Of a stretch of 41,608 bases of DNA, positions 621 through 14,656 are shown one piece after another; the first letter of the stretch is position 1, and every line of letters starts with the position of its first letter. Location: NCBI GenBank assembly GCA_017448685.1, contig JAFSKY010000160.1, positions 1-41,608 on the forward strand, in the 5' to 3' direction. Origin of the DNA: Synergistaceae bacterium. GTDB lineage: Bacteria > Synergistota > Synergistia > Synergistales > Aminobacteriaceae. A program made the position numbers and the translations under genes. The notes below the pieces were generated by a model. The model made no database searches, had not been told where the DNA came from, and saw only the letters and a list, made by a program, of their open reading frames with translations.

Positions 621-643
621 CACAGCACAGCACAGCACAGCAC
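621..643 (+). repeat. CACAG tandem repeat at the transcription start
   Basis: Four perfect copies of CACAG plus CAC follow the -10 hexamer without a gap, so transcription should begin inside the array. Copy-number change would alter the start region and leader but not the reading frame. The same arrangement with heptamers is seen at 8959-9028 and 10135-10176. Confidence 0.85.
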
Positions 644-706: not shown

Positions 707-1570
707 ATGAAGAGAAAACTCACTCTCATGTTGTCGGAAATGCGCGTTAAGCAATGGACAAAGAATCTTCTTGTGTATTCCGCCCCCCTGTTCAACGGAA
801 GCCTGCTCACCCTTTCAGATTTTCTCATATCGTCAGCTGTGTTCGCGTCATTCTGCATGGCCTCAAGCGGGATCTACATCATCAATGACATATTCGACAT
901 GGACAAAGACCGCCTTAACCCGGAAAAACGTTCAAGGCCGTTAGCCTCCGGGAAACTTAGCGCGGGATATGCCCTTACTGTTTCTGCGATTTTGCTTGCG
1001 TTCTCGCTTGTGTCTGCGTTCGCATTGAGCCGTGAATATTTCTGCCTGCTATTGTCGTATGTGGTGCTGAATGTTCTTTACGCGGCGAGGCTGAAGAATA
1101 TCGTTATAGTTGACGTTATGACAGTGGCATATGGATTCGTGGCGAGGGCTGTAGCTGGGGCTGTGTCATGCGGCGTGAAGATGACAGCTTGGTTTTTGCT
1201 GTGCGTAATGTTCCTGTCATTGTTCCTTGCGCTTGGGAAAAGACGTTATGAGCTTTCAGGGGAAAAACTCCGGGAGGGGCGCGAAGTCCTGAAGGATTAC
1301 AGCATTGACCTTATAGACAGGATGATGAACATAACCACTTCAGCCCTAATCATGAGTTATGCCCTATTCACGATGGATAGCACAACGAAAAACAGCCGAG
1401 CAATGTCGCTGACAGTTCCGCTTGTGCTTTATGGGGTGTTCTATTACCTATATGTTGTTCACGTCAAGCGCGGAGGAGGAAGCCCTGATGAAGCACTCTA
1501 CAAGGAGAAGCCAATTCTGATTACGGTTACGGTTTATGTGCTGTATGTAATCGCCGTGAGAAATTTCTGA
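707..1570 (+). CDS. UbiA-family prenyltransferase, decaprenyl-phosphate phosphoribosyltransferase-like
   Basis: This 287-residue polytopic membrane protein belongs to the UbiA superfamily. The first aspartate motif NDIFDMDKD is at residues 60-68 (N60, D61, D64, D68), followed by the RSRPLASG segment. The second conserved region, around DVMTVAYGFVARAVAGA, is the form typical of DPPR synthases (Rv3806c type), which move 5-phosphoribose from PRPP onto a polyprenyl phosphate at the inner membrane. The expected product is a lipid-linked phosphopentose used as a glycosyl donor precursor. The GT-C-like protein 15 bp downstream could be the enzyme that uses such a donor. No DprE1/E2 epimerase is in the window, so whether ribose or arabinose is the final sugar is open. 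A UbiA enzyme with another acceptor cannot be excluded. Confidence 0.8.
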   Translation: MKRKLTLMLSEMRVKQWTKNLLVYSAPLFNGSLLTLSDFLISSAVFASFCMASSGIYIINDIFDMDKDRLNPEKRSRPLASGKLSAGYALTVSAILLAFSLVSAFALSREYFCLLLSYVVLNVLYAARLKNIVIVDVMTVAYGFVARAVAGAVSCGVKMTAWFLLCVMFLSLFLALGKRRYELSGEKLREGREVLKDYSIDLIDRMMNITTSALIMSYALFTMDSTTKNSRAMSLTVPLVLYGVFYYLYVVHVKRGGGSPDEALYKEKPILITVTVYVLYVIAVRNF

Positions 1571-4968: not shown

Positions 4969-4996
4969 CTACCCACTACCCACTACCCACTACTCA
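4969..4996. repeat. Heptamer array (CTACCCA x4) between grpE and dnaK
   Basis: Three perfect copies of CTACCCA (AGTGGGT-phase on the minus strand) are followed by a fourth with one mismatch that contains the grpE stop codon. It occupies about half of the 56-bp grpE-dnaK gap, ahead of the dnaK ribosome-binding site, and may be a variable spacer within the mRNA. Confidence 0.85.
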
Positions 4997-5503
4997 CTGT
5001 ATTTTCCCTACTATGACTTTTGCAGGGCGTAAGACTCTATCATTTGTCCTGTACCCTTTGAGGATTTCCCGAATGATTACGCCGTCAAGTTCCGGGTCAT
5101 TCGTTTTTTCTGTCCCGGTAGCATCATGAATAGACGGGTCAAACTTTTCGCCCTCAGACTTTATGACGCTCACGCCGAGTCCCTCAAGCACTCCCATGAA
5201 TTGACGCTGAACCATCTCAACGCCTTTCAGGATGCTCATTGCGTCCTCAGTTCCTGCTGTCAACGCCCTGTCCAAGTTATCGAGTACAGGCAATATTGCG
5301 GTGATAGTTTCTTCTTGGGCGCGTTTTCTGGTTTCGGAGCGTTCTTTGATTGTGCGCTGCCTGAAGTTGTAGAAATCCGCTGTCTTAGTCTTGAGCTGGC
5401 GTTTGAGGTCGTCTATTTCTTTCTGCTTTTCATCCTCTTCAATTTCCGGCTGTGATTCTGATTCTTCCTGCGTCGCCTCTAATTTCTCGTCATCATCATT
5501 CAC
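4994..5503 (-). CDS. grpE: Nucleotide exchange factor GrpE
   Basis: The 169-residue product has an acidic, disordered N-terminus, a long coiled-coil helix rich in Lys/Glu (DDLKRQLKTKTADFYNFRQR), the NLDRAL segment, and a C-terminal beta domain with the family signature around GVEMVQRQFMGVLEGLGV and FDPSIHDA. It dimerises and releases ADP from DnaK. The start is the GTG at 5503, nine bases after GGAGGTG. That site overlaps the end of hrcA, with only three bases between the genes, so translation is probably coupled. Length and order are standard for the heat-shock operon. Confidence 0.95.
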   Translation of the reverse strand: MNDDDEKLEATQEESESQPEIEEDEKQKEIDDLKRQLKTKTADFYNFRQRTIKERSETRKRAQEETITAILPVLDNLDRALTAGTEDAMSILKGVEMVQRQFMGVLEGLGVSVIKSEGEKFDPSIHDATGTEKTNDPELDGVIIREILKGYRTNDRVLRPAKVIVGKIQ

Positions 5504-6675: not shown

Positions 6676-7419
6676 ATGATACCTGTTACAGTGCTTACGG
6701 TCTCACTAAACGCTGAGGCGACAATATCACGAGCGATTGAGAGCATGATTGCGCAGACATATGAAGGCGATATTGAGTACATAGTGATAGACGGAGCGTC
6801 AAAGGACAATACAGCCAGAATAGCGGAGTCATACGTTGAAAGGTTTAACTCACGGCCTCGAAGGTCAATGCGTGTAATCTCTGAGCCAGATAAAGGAATG
6901 TATGACGCTCTCAACAAGGGCGCAAAGTTGGCTAATGGCGTGATTGTTGGGCAGATAAACGCTGATGACTGGTATGAACCTGACGCGATTCAGATTATGG
7001 CGGAATTATATGAGCGTGAGAAATACAATGTTGGCTGGGGAACTGTGAATCTTCATACGAGTTGGAGCAGCATAAAGAAAAGTGCTAGGCTTCCGGGAAT
7101 GTTATGGACAACAACACATTGGCATCACACAACACAGTTTGCGGAGAAACAAACTCTGCTTGAGCATCCTTATGCCTGTGAGTGTTTTGCGGATGACTTC
7201 GAGTTTCTGACGTGGTGCTACGTGAATGGCAAGAAATTTTCCGTAACCGACAAGCTAATCACAAATTTTTCCTTCGGTGGAATGAGTACGAAAAAGAGCT
7301 TTAAGGCGGCTATGTACAGGCTGAAATGCATATCCATGATTTATAGGCGTTACGGGTTCAGCAGGCTTTATTGGATTCAGCGTTTTACCTACGAGATGGC
7401 CAAATATATTATGGCGTGA
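6676..7419 (+). CDS. Family 2 glycosyltransferase (copy 1)
   Basis: The 247-residue protein has a GT-A fold start (PVTVLTVSLNAEATI), the nucleotide-sugar loop DGASKDNT, EPDKGMYDALNKG and a DxD-type metal motif in NADDW (about residues 95-99). This arrangement is common in small GT2 enzymes of O-antigen, capsule and lipooligosaccharide clusters that work at the cytoplasmic membrane face. The acceptor half has HWHH and FGGMSTKKS. It is followed after 10 bp by a paralogue with about 80% identity over the first 125 residues but a much more diverged second half. The sugar and acceptor cannot be read from sequence. Confidence 0.88.
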   Translation: MIPVTVLTVSLNAEATISRAIESMIAQTYEGDIEYIVIDGASKDNTARIAESYVERFNSRPRRSMRVISEPDKGMYDALNKGAKLANGVIVGQINADDWYEPDAIQIMAELYEREKYNVGWGTVNLHTSWSSIKKSARLPGMLWTTTHWHHTTQFAEKQTLLEHPYACECFADDFEFLTWCYVNGKKFSVTDKLITNFSFGGMSTKKSFKAAMYRLKCISMIYRRYGFSRLYWIQRFTYEMAKYIMA

Positions 7420-7429
7420 GGCGAGGAAT

Positions 7430-8167
7430 ATGATACCTATTACGGTGCTTACAGTCTCATTCAATGCGGAGTCAACAATATCCCGGACAATCGAGAGCGT
7501 AATCAATCAGACATACAGCGACATAGAGTATATAGTGCTTGACGGAGCGTCAAAGGACAACACAGCCGATATAGCAAGGTCATATGTTGAAGGCTTCAAT
7601 TCGCGGCCGGGAAGGTCAATGCGTGTAATCTCTGAGCCTGACAAAGGAATGTATGACGCTCTCAACAAGGGCGCGAGGTTGGCTAATGGCGTAATAGTCG
7701 GGCAGATAAATGCGGATGACTGGTACGAGCCTGATGCGGTTCAGACTATGGCGGAATTGTACGAGCGTGAACATTACGCGCTTGCGTGGGGAAGCCTGAA
7801 TGTGATTACGGGGGCAGGGAACTTCATCAAACATGCCAGACGTGGACTCCTCTGGACGACTTCGCATTGGTGCCACCCGGCTGCTTTTGCCTCACGTGAG
7901 ACGTTGCTGGAATATCCTTATCCCCTAACGAACTCGCATGATGATTTTGACTTCGCGACGCATGTATATCTTGACGGGAAGAAAATTATCCCCCTCGACA
8001 AAGTGATAAGCAACTTCACATTCGGGGGGATGAGTACGCAGAAAAGTTTGCGTGAGGCGAAAAAGAGAGTCGATGAGATTTACGGGATCTACAAGAAATA
8101 CGGCATGAGCAAGTTATATTACCTGCACAGGCTTATATTTGAGGCTGTGAAGTATATTCTGACATAG
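7430..8167 (+). CDS. Family 2 glycosyltransferase (copy 2)
   Basis: This is a tandem paralogue of the preceding gene, 245 residues. It has the same GT-A landmarks: DGASKDNT, EPDKGMYDALNKG and NADDW. It is one residue shorter near position 30 (QTYSD against QTYEGD). Long stretches of DNA are identical in the 5' half, for example around 7610-7670, while the 3' half diverges, as expected if donor specificity is kept and acceptor specificity differs. It is probably co-transcribed with copy 1. Its last 35 bp overlap the 3' end of the convergent methyltransferase gene. Confidence 0.88.
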   Translation: MIPITVLTVSFNAESTISRTIESVINQTYSDIEYIVLDGASKDNTADIARSYVEGFNSRPGRSMRVISEPDKGMYDALNKGARLANGVIVGQINADDWYEPDAVQTMAELYEREHYALAWGSLNVITGAGNFIKHARRGLLWTTSHWCHPAAFASRETLLEYPYPLTNSHDDFDFATHVYLDGKKIIPLDKVISNFTFGGMSTQKSLREAKKRVDEIYGIYKKYGMSKLYYLHRLIFEAVKYILT

Positions 8168-8921
8168 CCTTCTCCGCAGTGAAGCATACATATGAGCTTA
8201 GAGTCTTTGCGCGGAAAATATACATCAGGAAGTCCCACAGCATGACAATTAGCGCGAACGGCACGAAAAACGAGAAATACCCAGCTTGGCCATAACTGAA
8301 CCTGAAATCCACATGAGTGAATCCGTGTTTTGACAGCAAATTTTTCAGCGCGGGATAATAGCAACGGTCATAATACGCTTTGAAGCCCTGAAAGCCTTTT
8401 ACTTCCGGGAAAATCGAGAACAGAATTTTGCGAGCTAGCCAGTTAGGGAGCATCTGATTTATCACAGAGAAAAGCGCAAACTTGCAGGGAAGCTCACTGA
8501 TGAATTTTCCGCCGGGTTTGAGTATCCTGCTTACCTCCTTAACCGCGCTGTCAAGATCATGCAGATGTTCCAGCACTGAAGATGACGTTACGAGGTCTGC
8601 TGAAGCGTCATCAAGCGGGACTCTTGCACCGGAAGCTATATCCGCCACGATTTTTTCGTCCGCGTCATGATTGTATTCAAGCTCCTCAGATGACACATCA
8701 AGCGCAATAATTTTTACGCCATCGAATTTTCTGCATTCCTCCGCAAAGGCGCAATGCTTTCCCCCGCCGATGTCAAGAATCACAATTTCGTCACGGAGGT
8801 TTGCTTTCACTTGCTCACGGTAATAAGTGTATATGCTGAATTTTGTGTTGGGAAAAAATTTCAGGAGGGCAAAATAACATTTCTTGTTGAAGTTGATGAA
8901 CGCTCTGACAGGGTTAGGCAT
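8133..8921 (-). CDS. Class I SAM-dependent methyltransferase
   Basis: I place the start at the ATG at 8921 (MPNPVRAF), five bases after GGGGAGG, rather than at the ATG six codons upstream. The 262-residue protein has motif I ILDIGGG at residues 48-54, an acidic post-I residue (ALDVSSEE), DASADLVTSSSVLEHLHD (motif IV region) and RILKPGGKF, typical of the Methyltransf_11/UbiE-like fold. Two hydrophobic segments near the C-terminus suggest membrane association. Together with neighbouring GT2 and radical SAM genes it probably modifies a glycan or lipid intermediate; the substrate is unknown. It is driven by the repeat-containing promoter at 9030-9059, with a leader of about 100 nt. Confidence 0.85.
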   Translation of the reverse strand: MPNPVRAFINFNKKCYFALLKFFPNTKFSIYTYYREQVKANLRDEIVILDIGGGKHCAFAEECRKFDGVKIIALDVSSEELEYNHDADEKIVADIASGARVPLDDASADLVTSSSVLEHLHDLDSAVKEVSRILKPGGKFISELPCKFALFSVINQMLPNWLARKILFSIFPEVKGFQGFKAYYDRCYYPALKNLLSKHGFTHVDFRFSYGQAGYFSFFVPFALIVMLWDFLMYIFRAKTLSSYVCFTAEKAMSEYTSQPQI

Positions 8922-8942: not shown

Positions 8943-8960
8943 GACAAACTAAGCTACTGC
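8943..8960 (-). promoter_or_regulatory. Conserved leader box (methyltransferase copy)
   Basis: Read on the minus strand, GCAGTAGCTTAGTTTGTC follows the last heptamer. It differs from the radical SAM copy at three of 18 positions and shares the core TAGCYTARTHT with the ubiA copy. Confidence 0.55.
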
Positions 8961-9028
8961 GGAATGCGGAATGCGGAATGCGGAATGCGGAATGCGGAAT
9001 GCGGAATGCGGAATGCGGAATGCGGAAT
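8959..9028. repeat. Heptamer array GCGGAAT x10
   Basis: There are exactly ten perfect copies of GCGGAAT (ATTCCGC in the transcribed direction) over 70 bp, with no variant unit, which suggests recent expansion. The array starts two bases after the minus-strand -10 hexamer, so transcription should start within it and the first ~65 nt of RNA would be repeat. Both strands are open in all frames and give false ORFs with NAECGMR-type repeats. Confidence 0.97.
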
Positions 9029-9029
9029 C

Positions 9030-9059
9030 ATTATACGCACACATTTTCGCTTATGTCAA
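9030..9059 (-). promoter_or_regulatory. Consensus promoter of the methyltransferase gene
   Basis: On the minus strand TTGACA (9054-9059) and TATAAT (9030-9035) are both perfect, with an 18-nt spacer. The expected start is near 9023, in the first heptamer. AAGGAGG lies directly upstream of the -35, as in the sister promoter at 10178-10207. Confidence 0.8.
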
Positions 9060-9106
9060 CCTCCTTTTTATTGATTTATGCGATATTTATTTTACCATAT
9101 AGCGAC

Positions 9107-9139
9107 GAAAAAAGCCGGACTCACTGTTTCAAGTCCGGC
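9107..9139 (-). terminator. Terminator of the radical SAM gene
   Basis: The 8-bp stem GCCGGACT/AGTCCGGC (9114-9121 with 9132-9139) has a 10-nt loop and is followed on the minus strand by six U. It sits six bases after the stop codon and separates the radical SAM gene from the methyltransferase promoter. Confidence 0.85.
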
Positions 9140-9145
9140 CTTGTC

Positions 9146-10051
9146 TTACGCCCACTCGCTTATGTCTTTCTCCGTTATGCCCCACTGTATTATTTTCGCG
9201 TCCAAGTTGCAATACCTACAGGCGGGTATAGGTTCTGCCATTCTCTGAAGAATCATGTCTGCTGTAACGTTATCGTCATAGATATTCACGGAATCGGCTT
9301 CAGTTATGGCTACGTTCTGGCCGAAATATCTGTTGAAGTGCCTCACATGGGGGGCAAATGTGCATGTGTAGAGGCGACCTTTGCGCAAGGTGATGCAGTT
9401 GTTGGCCCTTACACATAGAGCGAAGTTGTGTTTGATTCTGCTATTCCCCTTCAAGTTTATTGGCTCAACCGCGAATTTGTCATGCTGGCTTTCATCTTCA
9501 CCCCATGCCCATTTGAAGCTCACGCCGAATTTCACTGCTGTCTCCCGTACAGCTTCGACATTTATATTGATGGGGTAAGCGGAGGCAATTATATTCACCC
9601 TGCTGTCGTGGCAGGCTTTCCAGAAGCTATCATCCTGCTGTGAAAGAAGAATGCCGTTTGTGAACACTGAGATATCGCTGTCCGGGAAATTCTCGCGCGC
9701 AATTTTCATTATGGCTTTGATTTCCGGGTGTAAGAGCGGCTCTCCTCCTGAAAGGTAAATATATTCGCATTTATGCCCGAAAATCTCGCTCAGCCTCGCA
9801 AGATCCCGCTTCAATTCGACGACATCAACAAACTCAGGCTCGGCCAGTGGGGAAAAGTTGTTGCATCCCTTGCAATTGAGGTTGCAGTGTTCCGACACAT
9901 GAAACCTGAAGCCAAGCATGTCGCGCTTTTTCTTCAATGGCAGGTGGAACAGTATTTTTGTCTCTGCTATGAGAACTCTGCACAACCTTTTAGTGGCCTT
10001 GAGGAGATTCCAGATGGGGGAGGGAATTATCTTGCGGAGAAACTTTTTCAT
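9146..10051 (-). CDS. Radical SAM protein in a glycan region
   Basis: The 301-residue protein carries the radical SAM cluster motif C56-x3-C60-x2-C63 (CNLNCKGC), the SAM-binding GGE motif in YLSGGEPLLHPE, and later cysteines (CVRANNC, YTC, CRYC) that resemble an auxiliary-cluster region but do not form a full SPASM domain. It has no signal peptide. Similar stand-alone enzymes are common in polysaccharide clusters, where substrates are mostly unproven. GGGAGG lies seven bases before the ATG. The leader is about 120 nt and starts in the GCGAAAT array. The gene has its own promoter and terminator, a single-gene unit next to the methyltransferase, which has a sister promoter. Confidence 0.85.
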   Translation of the reverse strand: MKKFLRKIIPSPIWNLLKATKRLCRVLIAETKILFHLPLKKKRDMLGFRFHVSEHCNLNCKGCNNFSPLAEPEFVDVVELKRDLARLSEIFGHKCEYIYLSGGEPLLHPEIKAIMKIARENFPDSDISVFTNGILLSQQDDSFWKACHDSRVNIIASAYPININVEAVRETAVKFGVSFKWAWGEDESQHDKFAVEPINLKGNSRIKHNFALCVRANNCITLRKGRLYTCTFAPHVRHFNRYFGQNVAITEADSVNIYDDNVTADMILQRMAEPIPACRYCNLDAKIIQWGITEKDISEWA

Positions 10052-10118: not shown

Positions 10119-10136
10119 GATAGACTAAGCTAGTGC
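10119..10136 (-). promoter_or_regulatory. Conserved leader box (radical SAM copy)
   Basis: GCACTAGCTTAGTCTATC on the minus strand follows the heptamer array. It shares GCACTAGC and the following TA-T-TA pattern with the ubiA leader and most of its length with the methyltransferase leader. Confidence 0.55.
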
Positions 10137-10176
10137 GAAATGCGAAATGCGAAATGCGAAATGCGAAATGCGAAAT
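10135..10176. repeat. Heptamer array GCGAAAT x6
   Basis: Six perfect copies of GCGAAAT (ATTTCGC in the transcribed direction) fill 42 bp. The unit differs by one base from that at 8959-9028, and the change is present in every copy, so each array was made uniform separately. It begins one base after the -10 hexamer of the radical SAM promoter. Confidence 0.97.
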
Positions 10177-10177
10177 C

Positions 10178-10207
10178 ATTATACGCACACATTTTTATTT
10201 CCGTCAA
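10178..10207 (-). promoter_or_regulatory. Promoter of the radical SAM gene
   Basis: On the minus strand TTGACG (10202-10207), an 18-nt spacer and a perfect TATAAT (10178-10183). The spacer half next to the -10 (ATGTGTGCG) and the upstream AAGGAGG are identical to the methyltransferase promoter. The expected start near 10171 is in the first heptamer. Confidence 0.8.
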
Positions 10208-10290
10208 CCTCCTTATTGCTGAGATTTGTGCATTATATCACAAAAATACGTAGCCCTGAAACTATCTAATGCCACAAGCCGCAAGCGAGA

Positions 10291-13200: not shown

Positions 13201-13275
13201 ATCACAGAACGAACACGGTAGCTTCGGGGCGCAAATAGCTTCGGAGCTGTTATTGTTATGGAAGGAGATTTTGAC

Positions 13276-13905
13276 ATGAGCAGAAATTTCAAGGCGTTTA
13301 TTGCGGTGATTGTGTGCGCGGCTGTAATGTCGCAGGGAGTTCAGGCGTTTGCATTTGGAGGGGCGTTTTTGTTCGGGCTTGCGGAGAATTACAGGTTGCA
13401 GAAGAAAGCTGAGAATGGCGACTCCGAATCACAATTTAAGCTGGGGAATATGTACCGCACAGGTAAAGGCGTAAATCTGAACATGAGAGAGGCTGTGAAA
13501 TGGTACACGATTGCGGCGGATAACGGCCATGTAAGAGCGCAATACAACTTGGCGCAAATGTACAGGCTTGGCGATGGAGTGAGTCAGGATAAGGCTAAAG
13601 CGGCAGAACTTTACACAATGGCGGCTAAACATGGCAACTCTGACGCACAATATAACCTCGCTTTGATGTACTACAACGGGGACGGAGTAGAGCGTGATTT
13701 ACGGCGGGCGTTTGACTGGTACATGAAAGCGGCTATTAGTGGAGATGCCAATGCGCAATACAATTTGGCGATAATGTACGGACGCGGTGAAGGAGTCCCG
13801 GAGAATCGCAAGGAGGCTGTAATCTGGCTGAGGATGGCGGCTCGTCAGGGGCATAAAGATGCGCAAGAGGGCTTGAAGATGCTCGGTGAATCGTGGCGGC
13901 GTTAA
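13276..13905 (+). CDS. Exported Sel1-repeat protein
   Basis: The start is the ATG at 13276, seven bases after GGAAGGAGA; an ATG six codons earlier overlaps that site. The 209-residue protein has a signal peptide (cut near QAFA) and four 36-residue Sel1-like repeats of the type A-x2-G-x3-AQYNLA-x-MY-x2-G-x-GV, plus a partial fifth at the end. Sel1 repeats fold as TPR-like helix pairs and bind other proteins; bacterial members occur in cell-envelope, signalling and host-interaction roles. A second, non-secreted Sel1 gene begins 16 bp downstream, so the two form a pair. Confidence 0.88.
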   Translation: MSRNFKAFIAVIVCAAVMSQGVQAFAFGGAFLFGLAENYRLQKKAENGDSESQFKLGNMYRTGKGVNLNMREAVKWYTIAADNGHVRAQYNLAQMYRLGDGVSQDKAKAAELYTMAAKHGNSDAQYNLALMYYNGDGVERDLRRAFDWYMKAAISGDANAQYNLAIMYGRGEGVPENRKEAVIWLRMAARQGHKDAQEGLKMLGESWRR

Positions 13906-13921
13906 GGAGGCGCGTATCATC

Positions 13922-14656
13922 ATGTTATTGTTAGACGCAGGCCAGGCAACTCTTGAATCGGGCATAAGCAAGCTACTTGATGCGACATGGAGTTACATTA
14001 CACACACTCCAATTGACGAAATGAGGAAGAGCGCGGAAAAAGGCAATGCGGAAGCTCAATACTCTTTGGGGCTGATGTGTTACAGCGGTGAAAAAGTCCC
14101 AAGGGATTACGCTGAAGCTCTGAAATGGATTCGCCGTGCTGCTGAAGAGAATGGACACATTGACGCGCAGTTTGTGCTTGGATGTATGTATGATGAAGGT
14201 ATAGGGACTCCGCAGAATAAATCTGAGGCTGCCATGTGGTATCTCAAAGCTGCCGAACAGGGACATGCTATAGCGCAAAACAACCTTGGAGTCCTATATG
14301 AAATCGGTCAAGGCGTTACAGAAGATGAAGAAGAAGCAATGAAGTGGTACAGATTGTCCGCTGAACAGGGAAATGTATTCGGACAATTTAACCTAGGCTA
14401 TATGTATGAGTTAGGCCAAAATGTGAAGCATGATTACGAAGAGGCCGCAAAATGGTATCGCAAAGCCGCTGAGCAAGGGCATGTTTACGCGCAAAACAAT
14501 CTTGGAGTCATGTATGAGTTCGGTCAAGGCGTGGAGCAGGATGACAAAGAAGCATTGAAATGGTACAGATTGTCTGCTGAGCAAGGAAATCCCACAGCGC
14601 AACATAATCTGGAAGTCTATGTGCCTGTATCATCAAAAACGCTCAATCATTGCTGA
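13922..14656 (+). CDS. Sel1-repeat protein (second of pair)
   Basis: I choose the ATG at 13922, 11 bases after AAGGAGG, over an upstream GTG that lies inside the previous gene. The 244-residue protein has no clear signal peptide. It contains five full Sel1 repeats of 36-37 residues (for example AEQGHVYAQNNLGVMYEFGQGV) and a broken sixth that ends EVYVPVSSKTLNHC instead of continuing the pattern. The later repeats are so alike (AEQG-x3-AQ-NNLGV-YE-GQGV) that unit duplication is likely recent. Being next to a secreted paralogue, it may be the cytoplasmic partner, but no function can be assigned. Confidence 0.85.
   Translation: MLLLDAGQATLESGISKLLDATWSYITHTPIDEMRKSAEKGNAEAQYSLGLMCYSGEKVPRDYAEALKWIRRAAEENGHIDAQFVLGCMYDEGIGTPQNKSEAAMWYLKAAEQGHAIAQNNLGVLYEIGQGVTEDEEEAMKWYRLSAEQGNVFGQFNLGYMYELGQNVKHDYEEAAKWYRKAAEQGHVYAQNNLGVMYEFGQGVEQDDKEALKWYRLSAEQGNPTAQHNLEVYVPVSSKTLNHC

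Follow-up and report, generated by a model that had tools for sequence, protein, structure and literature searches.

Tandem-repeat arrays in short upstream reading frames as a probable translational phase switch of surface-glycan genes in a genus of Synergistaceae

Phase variation driven by short repeats is known mainly from pathogens, where it acts through frameshifts in the gene itself or through changes in its promoter, and surface-glycan enzymes occur among the known phase-variable gene sets. The closest precedent for the arrays described here is, by analogy, pil1 of Streptococcus gallolyticus, where GCAGA repeats within a leader peptide control a terminator before the pilus operon, an arrangement found at two loci, pil1 and pil3 (PMC3894217). 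At neuO of Escherichia coli K1, heptanucleotide repeats lie at the 5' end of a polysaccharide-modifying gene and act by copy number modulo 3 (PMC13001214), while hmw1A and hmw2A of Haemophilus influenzae carry 7-bp repeats in their promoters (PMC8262952, PMC2424069). Heptamers are also known from Beggiatoaceae, where TAACTGA direct repeats occupy intergenic regions and have been proposed as a binding site (PMC4679880). In the openly accessible literature that was searched, no report was found that joins the features as they occur in the locus described below.

The window analysed here is a 41,608-nucleotide stretch of a Synergistaceae genome, in which the initial annotation had recorded ten perfect GCGGAAT heptamers at one site and six perfect GCGAAAT heptamers at another, between flanks that were said to be duplicates. 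Both arrays are exactly as described, and the flanks are indeed duplicated, with AAGGAGGTTGAC...GTGTGCGTATAAT on one side and the TAGCTTAGTYTRTC box on the other. Runs of three consecutive units gave 12 matches against 0.00 expected from shuffles of the window. Because both downstream genes lie on the minus strand, the units on the coding strand are ATTCCGC (array A) and ATTTCGC (array B; Table 1). The third copy of the element, again with ATTCCGC x10 on the coding strand, is unlinked and lies on contig 43, upstream of a putative glycosyltransferase gene that was named from its sequence and has no Pfam match. Just upstream of site A, between it and the radical SAM gene, there is a terminator-like hairpin.

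Table 1. Positions of the repeat arrays, their predicted control elements and the genes behind them in the window (n, number of repeat units; third phase, the reading phase in which the leader is open to the gene)
Feature	Position	Strand	Sequence or remark
Class-2 array, within uORF	621..643	+	CACAG x4.6
Predicted switched gene of class-2 site, UbiA-family prenyltransferase	707..1570	+	
Predicted switched gene A, class I methyltransferase	8133..8921	-	ATG 8919-8921
TAA ending third-phase uORF, site A	8914..8916	-	n = 8, 11, 14
Box, site A	8944..8958	-	GTAGCTTAGTTTGTC; TAG stops in two of three frames
Array A, within uORF	8959..9028	-	ATTCCGC x10 on coding strand (GCGGAAT x10 on +)
-10-like element of P2, site A	9030..9035	-	TATAAT, directly before array A
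uORF start codon, site A	9042..9044	-	ATG
TTGACA, site A	9054..9059	-	part of near-invariant block GGAGGTTGAC; also -35-like element of P2
uORF Shine-Dalgarno, site A	9060..9064	-	GGAGG
P1 -10, site A	9089..9094	-	TAAAAT, weak candidate
Terminator-like hairpin and T run	9108..9139	-	GCCGGACTT...AAGTCCGGC; read in the sequence
Predicted switched gene B, radical SAM protein	9146..10051	-	
TGA ending third-phase uORF, site B	10048..10050	-	n = 5, 8; overlaps radical SAM start codon (ATGA)
Box, site B	10120..10134	-	CTAGCTTAGTCTATC; stops in two frames
Array B, within second uORF	10135..10176	-	ATTTCGC x6 on coding strand
-10-like element of P2, site B	10178..10183	-	TATAAT
uORF start codon, site B	10190..10192	-	ATG
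uORF Shine-Dalgarno, site B	10208..10212	-	GGAGG
P1 -10, site B	10232..10237	-	TGATATAAT

On the minus strand, a GGAGG Shine-Dalgarno sequence and a start codon stand before each array, which places the repeats inside a short upstream open reading frame (uORF) that reads on through the TATAAT and the array. Among the related loci described below, ATG, GTG or TTG lies exactly 9 nt after GGAGG in 35 of 41; in three more (sites A and B and the contig 43 copy) the start is instead an in-frame ATG six nt downstream of that point, the usual position at site A (9048-9050) being GCG. With the present ten units the uORF of site A stops at 8949-8951, and with six units that of site B stops at 10130-10132, in both cases within the box. 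The third-phase stop of site A lies 5 nt inside the methyltransferase gene (ATGCCTAA). From these frames we predict that the methyltransferase gene would be ON with 8, 11 or 14 copies and the radical SAM gene with 5, 8 or 11, and that both arrays are at present in the OFF phase. At both sites the box closes off the gene frame and the gene begins at a start codon of its own, so neither array is N-terminal coding sequence.

The same window holds a further site, which did not feature in the initial annotation. This class-2 element carries a variant of the motif, TTGACATCATGG...TACACT together with the SD-like AAAGGG (585-590), a P1 TATAAT at 561-566 and a uORF ATG at 600-602, and its pentamer array leads to a uORF stop (TGA 708-710) that overlaps the ATG of the UbiA-family gene as ATGA; it is predicted to be in the coupled, ON phase. 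Other repeats occur in the window as well. Two adjacent GT2 glycosyltransferase genes (6676-7419 and 7430-8167), 82% identical over 293 nt, are a recent tandem duplication, and 216-nt internal DNA repeats of two families run through consecutive ORFs at 13258-14656, suggestive of Sel1-like repeat proteins. Between grpE and dnaK, on the minus strand, lies TGGGTAG x4.3 (4969-4998), which was rejected as a member of the switch because it contains TAG stops and is without the motif.

A strict search with the window's own promoter and unit matched only the source genome. A 71% identical relative of the radical SAM protein, from the goat-rumen Synergistaceae bacterium RGIG3433, shares the flanks but carries a different array, TTCGCAG x9. 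Searching 43 genomes of the window's genus by pattern and then with a 44-nt profile of the upstream flank gave 79 places in 27 genomes, nearly all with a tandem array 0-3 nt after TATAAT; at least 80 predicted switch sites are carried by the genus. The arrays are built from 30 distinct units (22 heptamers, seven pentamers and one octamer), never a multiple of three in length and all stop-free in the three sense frames (30/30; P=0.013 against permuted units), while 10 of them have stops on the antisense strand. Within 557 kb the 10-mer GGAGGTTGAC occurs 59 times, 53 of them before an array, and the one-base variants that were tested occur once or not at all. The strict signature is present in 19 of the 43 genomes and absent from all 140 genomes searched in 58 other genera of the order. 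A lone match beyond the genus, in G047, was rejected as a switch site since there is no array there, and neither motif nor box was found in the viral contigs searched. The Beggiatoaceae repeats are likewise heptamers in direct repetition that immediately precede many genes of a single lineage, but they are one fixed heptamer genome-wide, contain stops (TAA, TGA) and have no functional theme, whereas the units here vary and are always stop-free.

Variant members of the family also occur. L119, on contig 78 of the source genome (8922-8957), with a mutated Shine-Dalgarno sequence (AAGTAGG), a mutated TATAAT and a single ATTCCGC unit, reads as a decayed switch. The elements L120, L121 and L107 (G025, G041 and G040) carry a GGGATTAATTCCC palindrome in the spacer and have no NTG start at the usual place; their ATG overlaps the -10 as CATAATG or CACAATG.

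All three frames leaving the array were followed at 43 loci whose gene has its own Shine-Dalgarno sequence and start. In 42 of these loci, which share ancestry, exactly one frame reaches the gene start, with its stop between -4 and +11 nt, so that in one phase the uORF stop overlaps or adjoins the downstream start as in termination-reinitiation pairs; in 25 of the 42 the overlap is ATGA. The other two frames end soon after the array, in most loci often within the TAGCTTAG box. As a comparison, 89 other genes in the same DNA were followed over matching leader lengths; a single frame reaches the start in 44% of them, and a single frame with its stop near the start is seen in 19%. When similar leaders are collapsed, 17 of 18 clusters obey the rule (P about 1e-11). 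These counts follow a refinement of the start-site rules made after a first pass, in which stricter rules gave 27/31, with no start reached at the remaining four. A later set adds nine non-fused loci; each has a frame whose stop falls between -7 and +11 nt, and the exactly-one rule holds for seven, one start having been picked by eye. At the gene, the Shine-Dalgarno sequence is less accessible than in controls (0.31 against 0.44, P=7e-5). At present 14 of 52 loci are in the ON phase, near the one third expected for free switching.

Another group of loci probably lacks the separate gene start. No start codon is seen after the array at 12 loci of the main set and probably at five of those fetched later, so probably seventeen in all, and at such loci the repeats would encode the N terminus of the protein. 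In 11 of the 12 the array opens directly into the gene frame; the twelfth, on contig 92 of G003, lacks a real array and has its own start. When translation is taken to begin at the uORF start, three of the 11 testable main-set loci are now in frame and eight are not, and the same fused gene has about 2 copies (ON) in G005 and 9 copies (OFF) in G012. The source genome has a GT2 glycosyltransferase of the fused kind on contig 23, in the OFF phase.

The reading that best accounts for these observations as a whole, and which we consider probable, is that the array is the counter of a phase-variation switch acting at translation. An mRNA begun at an upstream promoter, P1, would carry the Shine-Dalgarno sequence and start codon of the uORF, and ribosomes would translate the stop-free array; the gain or loss of one 7-nt unit would then shift the frame in which they leave it. 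Two frames would lead to a stop soon after the array and release the ribosome before the gene (OFF). The third would leave the leader open, so that termination falls on the gene start or no more than about 11 nt from it, typically at ATGA, where reinitiation or the opening of the base-paired gene Shine-Dalgarno by translational coupling would turn the gene ON. At the loci without their own start codon the third frame would instead give a direct N-terminal fusion. Since only a single frame arrives at the gene start, coupling, or fusion, should be switched on and off by copy number modulo 3. The motif, the start codons, the stop-free units, the one-phase rule, the fused loci, the distribution in the genus and the gene content are read from the sequences themselves; the use of P1, translation of the uORF, the rate of slippage and the coupling step are what we infer from this arrangement, and the transcription start and the rates of switching are its predictions. 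Two details at the window sites speak against the model, namely the weak P1 -10 of site A and the displacement of the uORF start by two codons at both A and B. As the downstream genes have good Shine-Dalgarno sequences, OFF may also mean low rather than none.

Placement of the arrays, as far as it can be read from sequence, is that of a contingency locus: the array lies in the uORF, its unit is not a multiple of three, and one of the three phases reaches the gene. The fused loci resemble neuO, where ON and OFF are likewise set by copy number modulo 3. However, neuO is one prophage gene with the repeat in the enzyme's own coding sequence, while arrays A and B are parted from the gene by stops and would act through a separate short ORF.

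Upstream of the uORF, most sites have an extended -10 (TGTGCTATAAT-like) 23-26 nt before the TTGAC, here called P1. Its -10 is an exact TATAAT at 31 of 52 sites, against 2 of 152 control windows and about 6% of shuffles, and P1, if used as we suppose, would place the Shine-Dalgarno sequence and start codon within the mRNA. The promoter recognized in the initial annotation, P2 (TTGACA-18-TATAAT; 9030-9059 and 10178-10207), overlaps the uORF. Its TTGACA-(17/18)-TATAAT pair is kept in varying codon frames, class-2 sites included, with arrays starting 0-3 nt after it, which suggests a real second promoter; a protein-level reason for the TATAAT (codons Tyr-Asn) was rejected because the frames differ in 17-spacer and class-2 sites. 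The coupling model does not account for the role of this pair, and transcripts from P2 would begin within the array, without the uORF start codon, so that the switch would leak.

The near-consensus P2 directly before the array is also what favours a tuning of transcript level, as at hmw1A, where more 7-bp repeats downstream of the promoter give lower expression (PMC8262952). The number of units would then grade transcripts begun at P2, with the frame irrelevant. The hmw1A and hmw2A arrays are, like those of the window, uninterrupted 7-bp arrays between promoter and surface gene at two related loci, but their effect on transcript level is gradual and no translated repeat has been reported, evidence for a frame being found only here. 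Such tuning would leave unexplained why Shine-Dalgarno and start codon keep their spacing, why the sense frames lack stops, why 42 of 43 loci follow the one-phase rule and why there are fused loci, and we regard it as improbable. The initial annotation had likewise seen an array of variable length in the leader, with copy number to be related to transcript level. That the array is no more than an untranslated leader tuning transcript level by its length is not supported, as the frame, the start codon, the stop box and the gene-start overlap all speak for a translational switch. Readings by promoter or leader length alone were given up because coding continues past the array at the fused loci.

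Attenuation of the pil1 type would have a longer uORF let the ribosome block a leader terminator, and it has some affinity with the present arrays. The pil1 repeats lie in a translated leader whose frame sets the length of the peptide (PMC3894217), and the gene Shine-Dalgarno region is structured here. Both systems have short repeats, not multiples of three, inside a leader ORF with its own Shine-Dalgarno sequence and start codon, and in both the gain or loss of units shifts the frame so that the leader peptide ends near to or far from the control element. In contrast to pil1 and pil3, the long frame here ends on the gene start codon and not at a hairpin, no attenuator-like terminator (hairpin and U-run) was found between leader ORF and gene in any of 43 leaders, and the arrays belong to a family that spans the genus, varies widely in its units and precedes glycan genes. 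We give attenuation very little weight; Rho-dependent polarity may be considered beside it. A further reading, in which the repeats control nothing and merely result from neutral slippage in promoter segments that were copied, is hardly credible. Flanks have been copied from locus to locus, and instability of short tandem arrays is known from many genomes, but 47 of the 55 perfect heptamer arrays in 557 kb adjoin the GGTTGAC motif, of the eight that do not, four or more belong to sites of this kind, the units are never multiples of three, and the overlap with gene starts is far above control.

The quick expansion and contraction proposed in the initial annotation agrees with the differences in copy number and unit between related species, but its placing of this turnover after the duplication of the two window sites is too narrow, as a whole family of such elements is scattered over at least 27 genomes. 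Before methyltransferase genes with matching protein starts there are 10 x ATTCCGC in the window, 6 x GTTCGCA in G022, 8 x in G041 and about 4 x GCAGTCA in G040. Contigs 95 and 124 of G008 share an overlap of exactly 141 nt and separate at the base from which alleles of 4 and 5 copies would differ; at 10 sites, against 0.66 expected, a contig end falls no more than 110 nt downstream; and in the 30-contig assembly of G040 the end of one contig and the beginning of another both lie within such an array (L178/L179, contigs 11 and 7), contig 11 then entering an epimerase-like gene. These are indirect signs of length heterogeneity, and long arrays or shared k-mers could also cause such assembly breaks. 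The source genome is a 249-contig assembly, about 90% complete, in which longer arrays may be collapsed. Going further, the cassette might make its own counters, new arrays of unrelated units arising repeatedly at one point, immediately behind the internal TATAAT, possibly because transcription that starts at this point favours the duplication of about 7 nt in tandem, with coupling turning them into heritable on/off states at many glycan loci; we consider this unlikely.

Pfam matches of 55 downstream proteins are dominated by GT2 (11), radical SAM (8), methyltransferases, GT1 (5) and DUF1919 (4), with further matches to MBOAT, cytidylyltransferase, GDP-mannose dehydratase, TupA-like ATP-grasp and UbiA. 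The genes behind the predicted switches thus appear to be glycan enzymes, the usual content of surface-polysaccharide loci, and this content is compatible with phase variation under phage or immune pressure. What sets the proposed switch apart is that the counter lies in a separate short ORF, with the output set by ribosomes that finish on the gene's start codon, and that apparently one homologous module stands before many surface-glycan genes in a gut commensal genus. As the module leaves the enzyme sequence untouched, it could precede almost any gene, and since the phase of each locus can be read from sequence, combinatorial surface states of these bacteria could be called from long metagenomic reads.
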